Assembly: GCA_024653405.1 (NCBI GenBank) | Contig: JANLGB010000168.1 | Span: forward strand, 1 to 5,184 | Length of the DNA stretch: 5,184 bases | Source of the DNA: Candidatus Saccharicenans sp. | GTDB taxonomy: Bacteria; Acidobacteriota; Aminicenantia; Aminicenantales; Saccharicenantaceae | Direction: 5' to 3' | Part shown: piece by piece, positions 565-4,126 of the stretch | Numbering within the stretch: position 1 is the first letter of the stretch | Layout of the letters: every line of letters begins with the position of its first letter | Program-made: the position numbers and the translations under genes | Notes under the pieces: model-generated | Seen by the model: only the letters and a program-made list of their open reading frames with translations | The model's database searches: none | What the model was told of the DNA's origin: nothing

Positions 565-783
565 ATGAAAGAAAAAGTGGAAGAAGTTCTTAACCGGATA
601 AGACCAGCCCTGCAGGCTGACGGAGGCGATGTGGAGCTGGTGGACGTGGTCGACGGCGTGGTCTCAGTCAGGTTGAAAGGCGCCTGTGGTGGCTGCCCCA
701 TGTCCCAGATGACCCTGAAGATGGGCATCGAGCGTTTGTTGAAAAAAGAAATTCCCGAAATCAAGAGCGTGGTTTCGGTCTGA
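565..783 (+). CDS. nfu: NFU-type Fe-S cluster carrier (NifU C-terminal domain protein)
   Basis: This 72-residue cytosolic protein consists solely of the NifU C-terminal (NFU) domain. Diagnostic features are LQADGGDVELV (16-26) and the cluster-binding CxxC in KGACGGCPMSQMT, with C41 and C44, followed by the usual amphipathic C-terminal helix. NFU domains bind a [4Fe-4S] cluster between two monomers and pass it to client enzymes. The start is ATG with a strong AAGGAG at 551-556, 8 nt upstream. It is the first gene of the predicted Rrf2-controlled operon, 32 nt before the IscS-like gene. Stand-alone NFU proteins of this size are common in anaerobes. The cluster type and clients here are inferred; NadA, encoded downstream, is a plausible client. 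Confidence 0.93.
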   Translation: MKEKVEEVLNRIRPALQADGGDVELVDVVDGVVSVRLKGACGGCPMSQMTLKMGIERLLKKEIPEIKSVVSV

Positions 784-803: not shown

Positions 804-818
804 AAGGAGGGCCCTTTG
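804..818 (+). promoter_or_regulatory. Ribosome binding site fixing the TTG start of the IscS-like gene
   Basis: AAGGAGG (804-810) is a near-perfect Shine-Dalgarno placed 5 nt before TTG (816-818). An in-frame stop (TAA, 792-794) lies just upstream, no ATG or GTG lies between, and the next in-frame ATG is codon 22, inside conserved sequence. TTG is therefore the only reasonable start. The strong binding site probably offsets the weak start codon. Confidence 0.75.
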
Positions 819-2006
819 CCAGGCTTTTATGCTGATAAGCAGGCCGCGGCCCCGGTCCGGCCGGAAGTCCTGGAGGCCATGCTCCCTTTTTTCAGCCAGG
901 AGTTCGGCAATCCCCAGAGCCTGCATTCAGTCGGGCAGAAGGCTGCCCGGGCCCTGAGTAAAGCCAGGGAACAGCTGGCCAGACTTATCAACTGCCGGCC
1001 GGAAGAAATAGTATTTGTGGCCTCCGGCTCGGAAGCCAACAACCTGGCTCTCAAGGGATTGGCCCTGGCCAACCAGGCCCGGGGACAGCGGGTCATAGTC
1101 TCAGCCATTGAGCACATTTCCGTGCTCAGGGCCACCCGGTTCCTGGAAAAGCTGGGATTCAGGATTACCCAGGTCCCGGTTGACGGATCGGGACTGGTCA
1201 GTCCGGAAAAAGTGGCTGAAGCTCTGACCCCGGACACGGTCCTGGTCTCGGTGATGATGGCTAATAACGAGGTTGGCACCATTGAGCCTGTGACTGAAAT
1301 CGCCCGGCTCTGCCAGTCCAGGGGCATCATTTTTCACAGCGATGCCGTGGCGGCTGTGGGCAACATCCCGGTTGACGTCAGTGCTCTGGGAGTTGATGCC
1401 CTGAGCCTGGCGGCTGACCAGTTCGGCGGTCCCAAAGGAGCTGGTGCCCTGTTCCTAAAGAAAGGAACTAAGATCACCCCCCTCATAGATGGCGGCTTGC
1501 AGGAAAATAACCGCCGGGCCGGTACCGAGAATGTCCCGGCCATAGTTGGCCTGGGCCAGGCGGCTGAGCTGGCGGCCCGGGAAATGGCAGAGAAAAGTGC
1601 GCGGCTATCCCGGCTCAGGGACCGCTTGATAGCCGGGGTTCTCGGCAGCCTGGATGAAGTCATCCTGACCGGGCATCCGGTAAACAGGCTGCCCCATCAT
1701 GCCAGCTTCTGCGTCAAATTTGTCGAGGGTGAAGCCATGCTGTTGGGCCTGGATCTCAAAGACATCCAGGTAGCCAGCGGTTCAGCCTGCACCTCGCGCT
1801 CTCTCCGAACCTCGCACGTGCTGACGGCCATGGGGATTGACCCGGCCGTGGCTCAGGGCAGCCTGGTCCTGACCCTGTTCGACGGGACCAGTGACGACCA
1901 GCTTGATTATTTCCTGGAAAATTTTCCACCGGTGGTCAGACGGCTCCGGGAATTGTCCCCGCTTTATACCAAGTATCGGCAGGAGAAAAAAGATGTACAC
2001 GGATAA
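816..2006 (+). CDS. iscS: IscS/NifS-family cysteine desulfurase homologue lacking the PLP lysine (probable non-canonical or pseudo-desulfurase)
   Basis: The 396-residue class V aminotransferase-fold protein aligns along its length with IscS, normally the PLP enzyme that takes sulfur from cysteine for cluster assembly. Retained residues include H100 (EH motif, IscS H104), N151 in ANNEVGT (IscS N155), D176 in HSDA (IscS D180), RRAGTENV, and loop cysteine C325 in SGSACTS (IscS C328). Lost residues are striking: the IscS sequence SGHK before IYGPKG reads AADQ (199-202), so the Schiff-base lysine K206 is Q202, H205 is D201 and S203 is A199. Gln183 is A179, and the N-terminal ATTP reads AAAP. The alignment is ungapped through this region and the frame is intact, so it is neither a frameshift nor a misalignment. 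Desulfurase activity is therefore doubtful. Archaeoglobus fulgidus IscS, which also lacks the lysine, is the known parallel. The gene overlaps iscU by 14 nt, supporting a joint role in the assembly complex. Confidence 0.9.
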   Translation: MPGFYADKQAAAPVRPEVLEAMLPFFSQEFGNPQSLHSVGQKAARALSKAREQLARLINCRPEEIVFVASGSEANNLALKGLALANQARGQRVIVSAIEHISVLRATRFLEKLGFRITQVPVDGSGLVSPEKVAEALTPDTVLVSVMMANNEVGTIEPVTEIARLCQSRGIIFHSDAVAAVGNIPVDVSALGVDALSLAADQFGGPKGAGALFLKKGTKITPLIDGGLQENNRRAGTENVPAIVGLGQAAELAAREMAEKSARLSRLRDRLIAGVLGSLDEVILTGHPVNRLPHHASFCVKFVEGEAMLLGLDLKDIQVASGSACTSRSLRTSHVLTAMGIDPAVAQGSLVLTLFDGTSDDQLDYFLENFPPVVRRLRELSPLYTKYRQEKKDVHG

Positions 2007-2565
2007 AGTCATGGAGCATTTTATGCATCCGCGGAATGTCGGGACCATAGCCGATGCCGATGGCGTCGGGGAAGTGGGTAACCCGGTCTGCGGCGACATG
2101 ATGACCTTTTACATAAAAGTCAAGGACGGGCGGCTGGAGGATGTTAAGTTCCAGACCTTCGGCTGCGGCGCAGCCATTGCCGTCAGCAGCCTGGTCAGCG
2201 AGATGGCCAAGGGTATGACCCTGGAAGAAGCCCTGAAGATAACCAATCAACAGGTGGCCGAGGAGCTGGGTGGCCTGCCGCCGCATAAGATGCATTGTTC
2301 CAACCTGGGGGCCGATGCCCTGCACAAGGCCATTGAAAATTACCTCAGCCAGCAGAGTGGTCAGCAAGCGGAAAAAGCCGAGAAAAGTGGCCCGGCTGCC
2401 GATAAGGACGAACCTTTCCACTGTCCTTTCTGCGATTTTATCCTGCCCGAAAATGCTCAGCTTTGCGCCCGCTGCCAGGTCAAGCTCATAAGATGCGAAC
2501 ACTGCGGCGAGTATAATCGGGAAGGGGAGGAAACCTGCCGCCATTGCGGGGCGGGATTGGTTTAA
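1993..2565 (+). CDS. iscU: IscU Fe-S scaffold fused to a C-terminal double zinc-ribbon-like domain
   Basis: The product has 190 residues. Residues 1-118 are a complete IscU/NifU N-terminal scaffold domain: opening MYTDKVMEHFMHPRNVG, then C33 and D35 in NPVCGD, C58 in FGCGAA, and H101-C102 in LPPHKMHCS. These are the three cluster cysteines plus the Asp and His of canonical IscU. Residues 119-141 are a Gln/Lys/Glu/Ala-rich, probably flexible linker. Residues 142-190 hold two consecutive modules, C144/C147-x10-C158/C161 and C168/C171-x10-C182/C185, typical of a double zinc ribbon. Canonical IscU is about 125-130 residues and ends before this part. ATG at 1993 is chosen because IscU homology begins there and AGGAG (1981-1985) sits 7 nt upstream; the frame is open further upstream but that part overlaps the IscS-like gene and has no homology. 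The tail's role is unknown; metal storage, protein docking or redox sensing are possible. Confidence 0.92.
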   Translation: MYTDKVMEHFMHPRNVGTIADADGVGEVGNPVCGDMMTFYIKVKDGRLEDVKFQTFGCGAAIAVSSLVSEMAKGMTLEEALKITNQQVAEELGGLPPHKMHCSNLGADALHKAIENYLSQQSGQQAEKAEKSGPAADKDEPFHCPFCDFILPENAQLCARCQVKLIRCEHCGEYNREGEETCRHCGAGLV

Positions 2566-2634: not shown

Positions 2635-3543
2635 ATGAGAAAAAATAGACTGGTCGAAGAAATCAACAGGTTGAAGAAAGAAAAGCGGGCGGTTATCCTG
2701 GCTCACAATTATCAACCGGATGAAATCCAGGACCTGGCCGATTTTGTTGGTGATTCCCTGGAGCTTAGCCGGAAGGCGGCCGAAGTTGAAGCCGATATCA
2801 TAGTTTTCTGTGGAGTCCATTTCATGGCCGAGACGGCCAAGATCCTGGCCCCGGGGAAAAAAGTTCTGCTGCCCGACCTGCGAGCCCGCTGCCCGATGGC
2901 CGATATGGTCCGCGGCGATGACCTGCGCTGGATGAAGGAGCAGCACCCGGGGAAAAAAGTTGTAGCCTACGTTAACACCACGGCCGAAGTTAAGGCCGAA
3001 ACCGATGTCTGCTGCACCTCGGCCAACGCGGTCCAGGTCGTCAGCAGCCTGCCGGAGGCAGAAATTATCTTTGTCCCCGACCGCAACCTGGCCCACTATG
3101 TCAGCCAGAAAACTGGAAAAAAGCTTCACCTCTGGGATGGTTACTGTCCCATTCATGAAGAAATAAAACCGAAGCACATCGAGAGAATGAAAAAGCGGCA
3201 CCCCGGGGCCGAGGTCTGGGCCCATCCCGAGTGCCGACCCGAGGTCCTGCTGCTGGCCGACCGGATTCTTTCCACCGGCCAGATGATCAGGGAAGCCCCG
3301 AAGAGCGAAGCCAGGGAAATAATCGTGGCCACCGAGGTCGGCATCCTGCACCGGCTGAGGAAAGAGAACCCGGACCAGAAATTCTATCCGGCCAGAGAAA
3401 AGGCGGTCTGCCGGAACATGAAGAGAATTAATTTAAAAAAAGTTTATAAGACTCTGCTGCTGGAAGAACCAGAAGTGGTAGTGGAACCCGGCCTGGCCGA
3501 CCGGGCCCGGGAAGCCATCAACCAAATGATGCTTTTCATCTGA
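2635..3543 (+). CDS. nadA: Quinolinate synthase A
   Basis: The 302-residue cytosolic enzyme condenses iminoaspartate with dihydroxyacetone phosphate to quinolinate, a step of de novo NAD synthesis, using an oxygen-sensitive [4Fe-4S] cluster. Family signatures are AHNYQPDEIQDLADFVGDSL (24-43), FCGVHFMAETAKIL, YVNTTAEVKAETDVCCTSANA, PDRNLAHYV and WDGYCPIHE. The three cluster cysteines are C86 (RARCPMADM), C171 (GYCPIH) and C259 (AVCRNMKRI), matching the spacing of the compact three-Cys type found in Thermotoga and Pyrococcus. Length is normal. ATG follows GAAGG (2624-2628) by 6 nt, a modest ribosome site. It lies 69 nt after iscU with no obvious terminator between, so it may be co-transcribed with the Fe-S genes. 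nadB and nadC are not in the window. Confidence 0.96.
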   Translation: MRKNRLVEEINRLKKEKRAVILAHNYQPDEIQDLADFVGDSLELSRKAAEVEADIIVFCGVHFMAETAKILAPGKKVLLPDLRARCPMADMVRGDDLRWMKEQHPGKKVVAYVNTTAEVKAETDVCCTSANAVQVVSSLPEAEIIFVPDRNLAHYVSQKTGKKLHLWDGYCPIHEEIKPKHIERMKKRHPGAEVWAHPECRPEVLLLADRILSTGQMIREAPKSEAREIIVATEVGILHRLRKENPDQKFYPAREKAVCRNMKRINLKKVYKTLLLEEPEVVVEPGLADRAREAINQMMLFI

Positions 3544-3581: not shown

Positions 3582-3622
3582 AGGTTGGTAAGAAAATAAT
3601 TGCCAAATTAAAGGGAGGCTTG

Positions 3623-4126
3623 ATGAAAAAAATCACTGAAAACACGGTCAAAGAAGCCCTGGCCGGCGAAAGCCAGGCCCATCTCCGGTATAAGTTTTAT
3701 GCCCAGAAAGCCAGGCAGGAAAATCTGCCCAACATTGCTCGGTTGTTGGAAGCGGCCTCTTTTTCCGAGCAGATTCATGCCCTAAACCATCTGAACGTTC
3801 TGGAGGGAGAAGGGAAAACGGCTGACAACCTGGGTAAAGCTTATGACGGGGAAAATTTTGAGATCGAAGAAATGTACCCGGCCTATATCGCCGTAGCCAA
3901 AGAACAGGGCGAAAAGAGAGCAGCCACCTACCATCAATTTGCCCTGGCCGCCGAAAAAATCCACGCCGGCCTTTATGCCCGGGCCAAGCAGGCCGTGAGC
4001 CAGGGAAAGGACCTGGAATTGCCCGACCTCCATATCTGTTCGGTTTGCGGTTTCACCATGGAGGGAGAGGCCCCGGACCATTGTCCGGTCTGTGGTGCTC
4101 CCAGAAGCAAGTTTGTTAAGTTTTGA
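3623..4126 (+). CDS. rbr: Rubrerythrin (ferritin-like di-iron domain plus C-terminal rubredoxin-like domain)
   Basis: This 167-residue cytosolic peroxidase reduces hydrogen peroxide in anaerobes. The N-terminal four-helix ferritin-like domain shows the di-iron ligand pattern: E16 (GESQAH), E49 and H52 (SEQIHALNH), glutamates around 80-97 (EIEEMYP, EQGEKR) and E111 with H114 (AEKIHAGLY). A C-terminal rubredoxin-like [Fe(SCys)4] site has C139/C142 (ICSVCG) and C154/C157 (CPVCGAPRSKF). Length and domain order are those of compact rubrerythrins. ATG at 3623 is preferred over the adjacent in-frame TTG at 3620 because GGGAGG (3613-3618) would be only 1 nt from the TTG. It follows nadA by 79 nt. Co-expression with the Fe-S genes would fit protection of labile clusters, but a shared transcript is not shown. 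Confidence 0.96.
   Translation: MKKITENTVKEALAGESQAHLRYKFYAQKARQENLPNIARLLEAASFSEQIHALNHLNVLEGEGKTADNLGKAYDGENFEIEEMYPAYIAVAKEQGEKRAATYHQFALAAEKIHAGLYARAKQAVSQGKDLELPDLHICSVCGFTMEGEAPDHCPVCGAPRSKFVKF

Follow-up and report, generated by a model that had tools for sequence, protein, structure and literature searches.

An IscS homologue without the Schiff-base lysine in a Candidatus Saccharicenans operon belongs to a widespread bacterial family of predicted non-catalytic IscU partners

ISC systems for iron-sulfur (Fe-S) cluster assembly are regarded as taking in their sulfur through the cysteine desulfurase, and class I cysteine desulfurases such as E. coli IscS, NFS1 and NifS have in common a fold, a loop-cysteine motif and IscU as their partner. 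According to excerpts of PMC7585200, the IscS of Archaeoglobus fulgidus has no desulfurase activity because Asp replaces the catalytic lysine, and it supplies a Cys ligand. This protein (IscS2; PDB 4EB5, 4EB7, 4HVK; D199K mutant 4R5F) has been solved in complex with IscU; its loop Cys is kept, and its pocket has Asn at the position of E. coli His205, Ala at Gln183 and Leu at Arg354. Here we describe a 5,184-nucleotide stretch of DNA from Candidatus Saccharicenans sp. (contig JANLGB010000168.1; the window), in which a 396-amino-acid IscS/NifS homologue (816..2006, + strand; an open frame with a TTG start) likewise has no Schiff-base lysine, keeps the loop Cys and is encoded with IscU. The initial annotation of this DNA had drawn the parallel with A. 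fulgidus, which is borne out by these features; the two proteins are 46% identical by structure alignment and differ in that the archaeal one has Asp (SSND) and keeps Ser203, whereas the window protein has Gln and Ala199. With moderate confidence, we predict that the window protein is a non-catalytic partner and docking platform of IscU and that Cys325, in its mobile loop, serves as a ligand of the nascent cluster.

Residue equivalences were assigned with E. coli IscS (from NC_000913.3) as the reference. In the segment SLAADQFGGPK (S197-K207; 1404..1436, + strand), which stands in place of the His-Lys before GPKG in lysine-bearing IscS, the E. coli SGHK (S203-G-H205-K206) reads A199-A200-D201-Q202, and the lysine that binds pyridoxal 5'-phosphate (PLP) is Gln202 (CAG codon, 1419..1421, + strand). 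Other PLP contacts are also gone, with A199 for S203, Ala179 (1350..1352, + strand) for Gln183 and AAAP for ATTP (A11 = T12), while H100 (H104), N151 (N155), D176 (D180), RRAGTEN and the mobile-loop cysteine Cys325 (E. coli Cys328; 1788..1790, + strand), which lies within SGSACTS and completes the motif SGSAC, are retained, as is T237 (T243). The losses and the other retentions had been read correctly in the initial annotation, together with an intact frame and an overlap with iscU (the iscU ATG at 1993 lies within iscS, whose stop is at 2004-2006, a 14-base overlap); its claim of a gap-free alignment stands around the site and fails over the full length (Q202=K206, T237=T243, C325=C328), and it had overlooked the conserved Arg354, here Val351 (1866..1868, + strand). 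Compared with the class I enzymes, the window protein is thus without equivalents of the Schiff-base Lys, His205, Gln183 and Arg354. The IscS fold (fold-type I PLP enzyme) is present and is retained in an AlphaFold2 (AF2) monomer model, in which loop 326-330 has a predicted local distance difference test (pLDDT) score <50; the NCBIfam scores mark the protein as NifS/IscS-like and fall below the equivalog cut-offs for both NifS (476.8 vs 530.75 bits) and IscS (353.8 vs 643.2).

The loss of catalytic residues is coordinated across the family. In a comparison of 114 representative rows (72% non-redundant), 65 without the lysine (64 bacterial and the A. fulgidus protein) and 49 lysine-bearing, Lys206 was absent from all 64 bacterial Lys-less rows, 61 of which have Gln there. 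His205 was present in 4/65 Lys-less vs 49/49 lysine-bearing rows (lost in 60/64 bacterial rows), Gln183 in 1/65 vs 47/49 (lost in 63/64 bacterial rows), Ser203 in 11/65 vs 42/49 and Asn155 in 23/65 vs 44/49; Arg354 was found in none of the 64 bacterial Lys-less rows (V 36, L 19, I 5, Q 2, H 1, T 1) and in every one of the 49 lysine-bearing rows. By contrast with these residues, Cys328, His104 and Asp180 were present in every row of either kind, so that the loop Cys is found in 64/64 bacterial Lys-less and 49/49 lysine-bearing rows. This comparison supports the pattern proposed at the outset, in which the catalytic pocket was lost in a coordinated way while the protein kept its fold, its loop cysteine and IscU as partner. 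Residue 331 (1806-1808), six positions after the loop Cys, is Lys/Arg in 62/64 Lys-less and Glu/Asp in 42/49 lysine-bearing rows, a difference that possibly represents a change at the loop.

That the protein is still a desulfurase, using PLP without a Schiff base or on another lysine, is very improbable. His104 and Asp180 are kept, and excerpts of PMC9978102 report that E. coli IscS K206A still binds some PLP; the same excerpts state that K206A and Q183E have no desulfurase activity, and in the Lys-less rows several pocket residues are lost together. As for a substitute lysine, there are nine alignment columns where 50% or more of the 64 Lys-less rows have Lys, and only at Lys80 does the share exceed 90% (62/64); this is no new feature, because Lys or Arg occupies the position in 40/49 lysine-bearing rows too, and the GPKG lysine is retained in only 41/64 Lys-less rows. 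It need not follow from the lost contacts that PLP is absent, since K206A is inactive yet binds some of it; furthermore, the A. fulgidus structure 4EB5 is described with PLP in excerpts of PMC9769115. Desulfurase inactivity of the Lys-less family is a strong prediction; complete loss of PLP is not.

Rather than an isolated bacterial counterpart of the archaeal protein, as first thought, the window protein belongs to a large family in which the Schiff-base lysine is missing. A search for the nearest proteins was performed against a 5.8-billion-protein database, and the best 120 of the 7975 matches over the cut-off were read; at the lysine position the 119 other proteins have Gln (114) or Glu (5) and never Lys, and all 119 retain the loop Cys. 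A second list, the best 120 proteins for L057, which is a distant member found in a different acidobacterial lineage, includes several from Dehalococcoidia or Chloroflexota and contributed 118 new proteins with L057 itself included (Q 115, M 2, E 1; no Lys; Cys in all). One genome per species was also searched with the degenerate DNA motif GSNRAYCARTTYTAYGGNCCNNNNGG; at least 118 stretches match. Of the 118 listed, all but 7 code for a Lys-less IscS homologue (111 stretches), and the loop Cys was found in all 102 readable cases among these 111. This count measures breadth and not the share of proteins without Lys, because the motif itself demands Gln. By record title, the loci span about ten phyla, mostly as metagenome-assembled genomes (MAGs), single records of which may be mis-binned: Aminicenantes/Acidobacteriota, Chloroflexota, Thermodesulfobacteriota and other "Deltaproteobacteria", Omnitrophota, Planctomycetota (including Brocadia), Bacillota (Syntrophomonadaceae), Elusimicrobiota, Actinomycetota, Pseudomonadota and Saganbacteria. 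Among 396 acidobacterial genomes, 121 match at 1e-100, a set that includes lysine-bearing proteins. Titles and abstract openings in the open-access PMC literature yielded no report that we recognised as describing the bacterial family. Other Lys-less types occur in Syntrophales-like genomes (L227, L228, L221 and L235, with IscU in the same locus in 4/4), namely SGPALGAPKG and SGPPLGAAKG, where Ala or Pro replaces the lysine, and S[PS]HQFYGPKG, in which His is kept and an insertion lies beside the loop Cys.

The Lys-less iscS gene is under purifying selection. The ratio of nonsynonymous to synonymous substitution rates (dN/dS, Nei-Gojobori script) of the window gene against 11 congeners was 0.069-0.160, with dS near saturation in the most distant pairs, and the values for IscU and NadA (9/11 computable each) were 0.056-0.136 and 0.038-0.112, respectively. 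The host genome is a draft MAG of 2.31 Mb in 356 contigs, 80.1% complete, which is the kind of source in which a decaying gene, a sequencing error or an assembly artefact might be expected; the occurrence of the same change in many other assemblies, the dN/dS values and the intact frame rule out chance or error, and the probability that we leave to such an origin is negligible.

The conserved neighbourhood points to IscU as the partner. The Nfu-like protein (NfuL), the Lys-less IscS, IscU and NadA are found together in the window and in 29/29 related loci of the order (those fetched for the best matches; NadA is in some of them truncated by the locus edge), and IscU lies within 600 bp of the Lys-less gene in 81 of the 111 loci listed for GSNRAYCARTTYTAYGGNCCNNNNGG, a further 23 being near an edge. 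The ligand residues of IscU are nearly invariant in 111 distinct rows (Cys33 110, Asp35 110, Cys58 110, Cys102 109). The window IscU ends in a double zinc ribbon with 8 Cys. As a marker of the family, a Cys-rich IscU tail was not diagnostic, as a tail with at least four Cys occurs beside Lys-less genes in 64/115 cases and beside lysine-bearing genes in 9/31 (the latter nine being longer, ~150 amino acids). Within the genus, the Lys-less operon occurs in 13 of the 19 genomes (in one of them divided between two contigs) and 5 have a lysine-bearing operon, IscU-NfuL-IscS, in which IscS reads SGHK; no genome has both, and one, 63% complete, has neither. This mutual exclusion (Fisher p 1.2e-4, uncorrected for kinship) suggests that both operons serve one function.

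The sulfur source was evaluated from the other desulfurases encoded in the same genomes. The initial annotation had concluded that sulfide, not cysteine, feeds assembly, which does not follow for the host genome, as the search for a second IscS/SufS that it called for found a NifS-type gene reading SSHK (C133; IscU is not its neighbour) and, on C352, a Csd/SufS-like gene that reads TGHK and contains a run of N. Further class V aminotransferases are also present. Because of the two lysine-bearing genes, sulfur could come from cysteine in trans. A rival explanation is a sulfur relay, in which the protein makes no persulfide itself and Cys325 accepts it from another desulfurase or a rhodanese-like donor and passes it to IscU. 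We regard such a relay as possible though fairly unlikely: the loop Cys does not vary in any of the sets examined and a further NifS-type paralogue occurs in 19/19 genus genomes (its Lys read in three), whereas no intact lysine-bearing IscS/SufS-type donor was found in two chromosomes described below, and A. fulgidus IscS is reported, in the excerpts of PMC7585200, to give a ligand and not sulfur.

The first of these chromosomes, G442 (CP070819, titled as a Dehalococcoidia chromosome, one contig, 2.1 Mb), has the Lys-less gene as the only intact IscS-type gene found, together with a partial copy that covers the start of the gene and adjoins a run of N; no SufB/D match and no intact lysine-bearing IscS/SufS-type homologue was found in this MAG, whose completeness is not stated. 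The second, G440 (CP070693, 1.1 Mb; also a MAG of unstated completeness), holds the Lys-less gene, an aminotransferase-like match and a SufB/D match. The condition of G442 is not general, because among 80 sampled genomes of its class, 73 match at 1e-12 and 63 have at least two matches (Lys was read in a minority). For G442, the case for sulfide is stronger than for the host genome. The complete genome of Candidatus Brocadia pituitae (G450, AP021856), in which no SufB/D match was found, holds a Lys-less IscS as well as a lysine-bearing IscS beside IscU and NfuL.

These genomes also bear on the proposal that the protein is a pseudoenzyme regulator, which would block or time IscU, or form mixed dimers with a lysine-bearing IscS, and leave the cluster untouched. 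The retained fold is compatible with this, and many genomes with the Lys-less gene hold further IscS-type genes, mostly lysine-bearing where read; however, a regulator would not need an invariant loop Cys, the Lys-less gene is the only IscS-type gene found in G442 (the partial copy aside) and in G440, and within the genus it takes the place of a lysine-bearing ISC operon. We consider this explanation improbable.

The archaeal proteins form a family of their own. Among the best 120 proteins listed for A. fulgidus IscS, itself included, the lysine position holds Asp in 119 and Lys in one, the PDB mutant, and every one of the 120 keeps the loop Cys, with Asn in place of His205 and either Leu or Val in place of Arg354; the named matches come from Archaeoglobus, Ferroglobus, Geoglobus, Hadarchaea, Bathyarchaeia and a "Thaumarchaeota" MAG. 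This SSND family (P0240-P0359), with no lysine in any natural protein listed, is wider than the two archaeal cases in the cited papers. Whether the Lys-less proteins form a clade was addressed with several trees, including one with the pocket columns removed: the archaeal group was a clade (100/99), the bacterial group was a clade together with the protein 9wep (100/98), and the two were not sisters. In one careful tree, 0% of 200 bootstrap trees joined the A. fulgidus and bacterial Lys-less groups; a single clade of all Lys-less rows was not rejected by the approximately unbiased (AU) test (p 0.4 and 0.148; 0.361 with 9wep included), and in the quick tree the constraint joining them gave the better score, by a margin of 22.74 (p 0.742). 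Two Lys-less groups were preferred in the careful trees, without rejection of one. The shared residues may have disappeared in a single event or in two or more, or the lysine may have been regained in the line leading to 9wep.

Our preferred reading, that of a non-catalytic IscU partner, has the following steps. An IscS-fold protein without the Schiff-base lysine is predicted, as judged from the E. coli mutants and A. fulgidus IscS, not to cleave the C-S bond; it would dock the IscU encoded next to it, and Cys325 would, by analogy with the archaeal protein, ligate the nascent cluster on IscU. In anaerobes, the simplest putative source of sulfur is sulfide, and no other is evident in the genomes that yielded no intact lysine-bearing homologue; in the host genome, persulfide from a paralogue would also be possible. 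Given the adjoining NfuL, the zinc ribbon of IscU and NadA, finished clusters may be passed on to [4Fe-4S] enzymes, NadA among them.

Several points weigh against this reading. The lysine-bearing 9wep falls inside the bacterial Lys-less group in the pocket-column-free tree and in the quick tree, and beside it in others (85/79 in the larger tree), and the bacterial rows without 9wep were monophyletic in 2% of 200 bootstrap trees, their clade not being rejected (AU p 0.492). The host genome keeps its lysine-bearing paralogues. For seven of the 111 listed Lys-less genes, no IscU was recognised although the sequence extends 1 kb or more to either side, and L057 (G187:C166) sits among genes that by eye are nuo-like (complex I), also without a recognised IscU; not all members need therefore act through IscU. 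According to excerpts of PMC9978102, E. coli IscS R354K is as active as the wild type with dithiothreitol (DTT), so that loss of Arg354 alone is no proof of inactivity. Finally, the ligand role of the cysteine is carried over from A. fulgidus, and no biochemistry was found for any bacterial Lys-less member in the open-access PMC literature.

The gene order in the window is the end of a beta-lactamase-fold gene (3-383), the NifU C-terminal (Nfu-like; NfuL) protein as first gene of the cluster (565..783, + strand; Pfam NifU 2.9e-32), the IscS homologue, IscU, NadA, rubrerythrin (3620-4126) and an M50 peptidase (from 4403). The sequence AAGGAGG (804..810, + strand) was identified by eye as the likely ribosome binding site for the TTG start at 816. 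IscU (1993..2565, + strand) combines the NifU-N scaffold domain (Pfam NifU_N 3.2e-49), in which Cys33, Asp35, Cys58 and Cys102 are present, with the C-terminal zinc ribbon (residues 144-186; DZR 4.5e-07), and is followed by NadA, quinolinate synthase (2635..3543, + strand; Pfam NadA 3e-127), which is a [4Fe-4S] enzyme. The end of the beta-lactamase-fold gene also lies upstream of the cluster in genus loci, and in some relatives NadA is also near a lysine-bearing IscS. The nearest named proteins are those of "Candidatus Saccharicenans", Aminicenantes and an unplaced acidobacterium.

On a wider scale, we tentatively propose, at somewhat less than even probability, an ancient PLP-free branch of ISC in many anaerobic phyla, in which IscS would lend a Cys, free sulfide would be the source and the system would be the sole one for Fe-S assembly in some Dehalococcoidia, with a parallel archaeal branch in which the same pocket residues are changed. 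If this is true, many public 'cysteine desulfurase' annotations in anaerobes would be wrong, with effects on annotation and metabolic models; the public names of family proteins, where given, are mostly "cysteine desulfurase", so that desulfurase counts in anaerobes may be inflated. A conserved Lys-less family would set what IscS does as platform and ligand donor apart from its catalysis, and would provide natural material for testing the feeding of IscU with sulfide in bacteria.

Beyond A. fulgidus, a further close case is that of Methanosarcina acetivorans, whose IscS1 (MA0808) is also without the catalytic lysine and is paired with IscU1, a protein of 24.2 kDa that is larger than E. coli IscU; IscS1 is archaeal, unlike the window protein, and the recombinant protein was in inclusion bodies (excerpts of PMC7585200). 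The minimal ISC system (MIS), as described in excerpts of PMC12192291, is likewise short, consisting of desulfurase and scaffold, and has a cysteine desulfurase and no carrier, whereas the window has an IscS without the catalytic Lys and an adjacent Nfu-like gene. According to the same excerpts, the SMS system (SmsCB) of Methanocaldococcus jannaschii assembles Fe-S clusters with sulfide and without a desulfurase; the analogy is functional only, as SMS is made up of SufBC-type proteins and the window system is of the IscS/IscU type.
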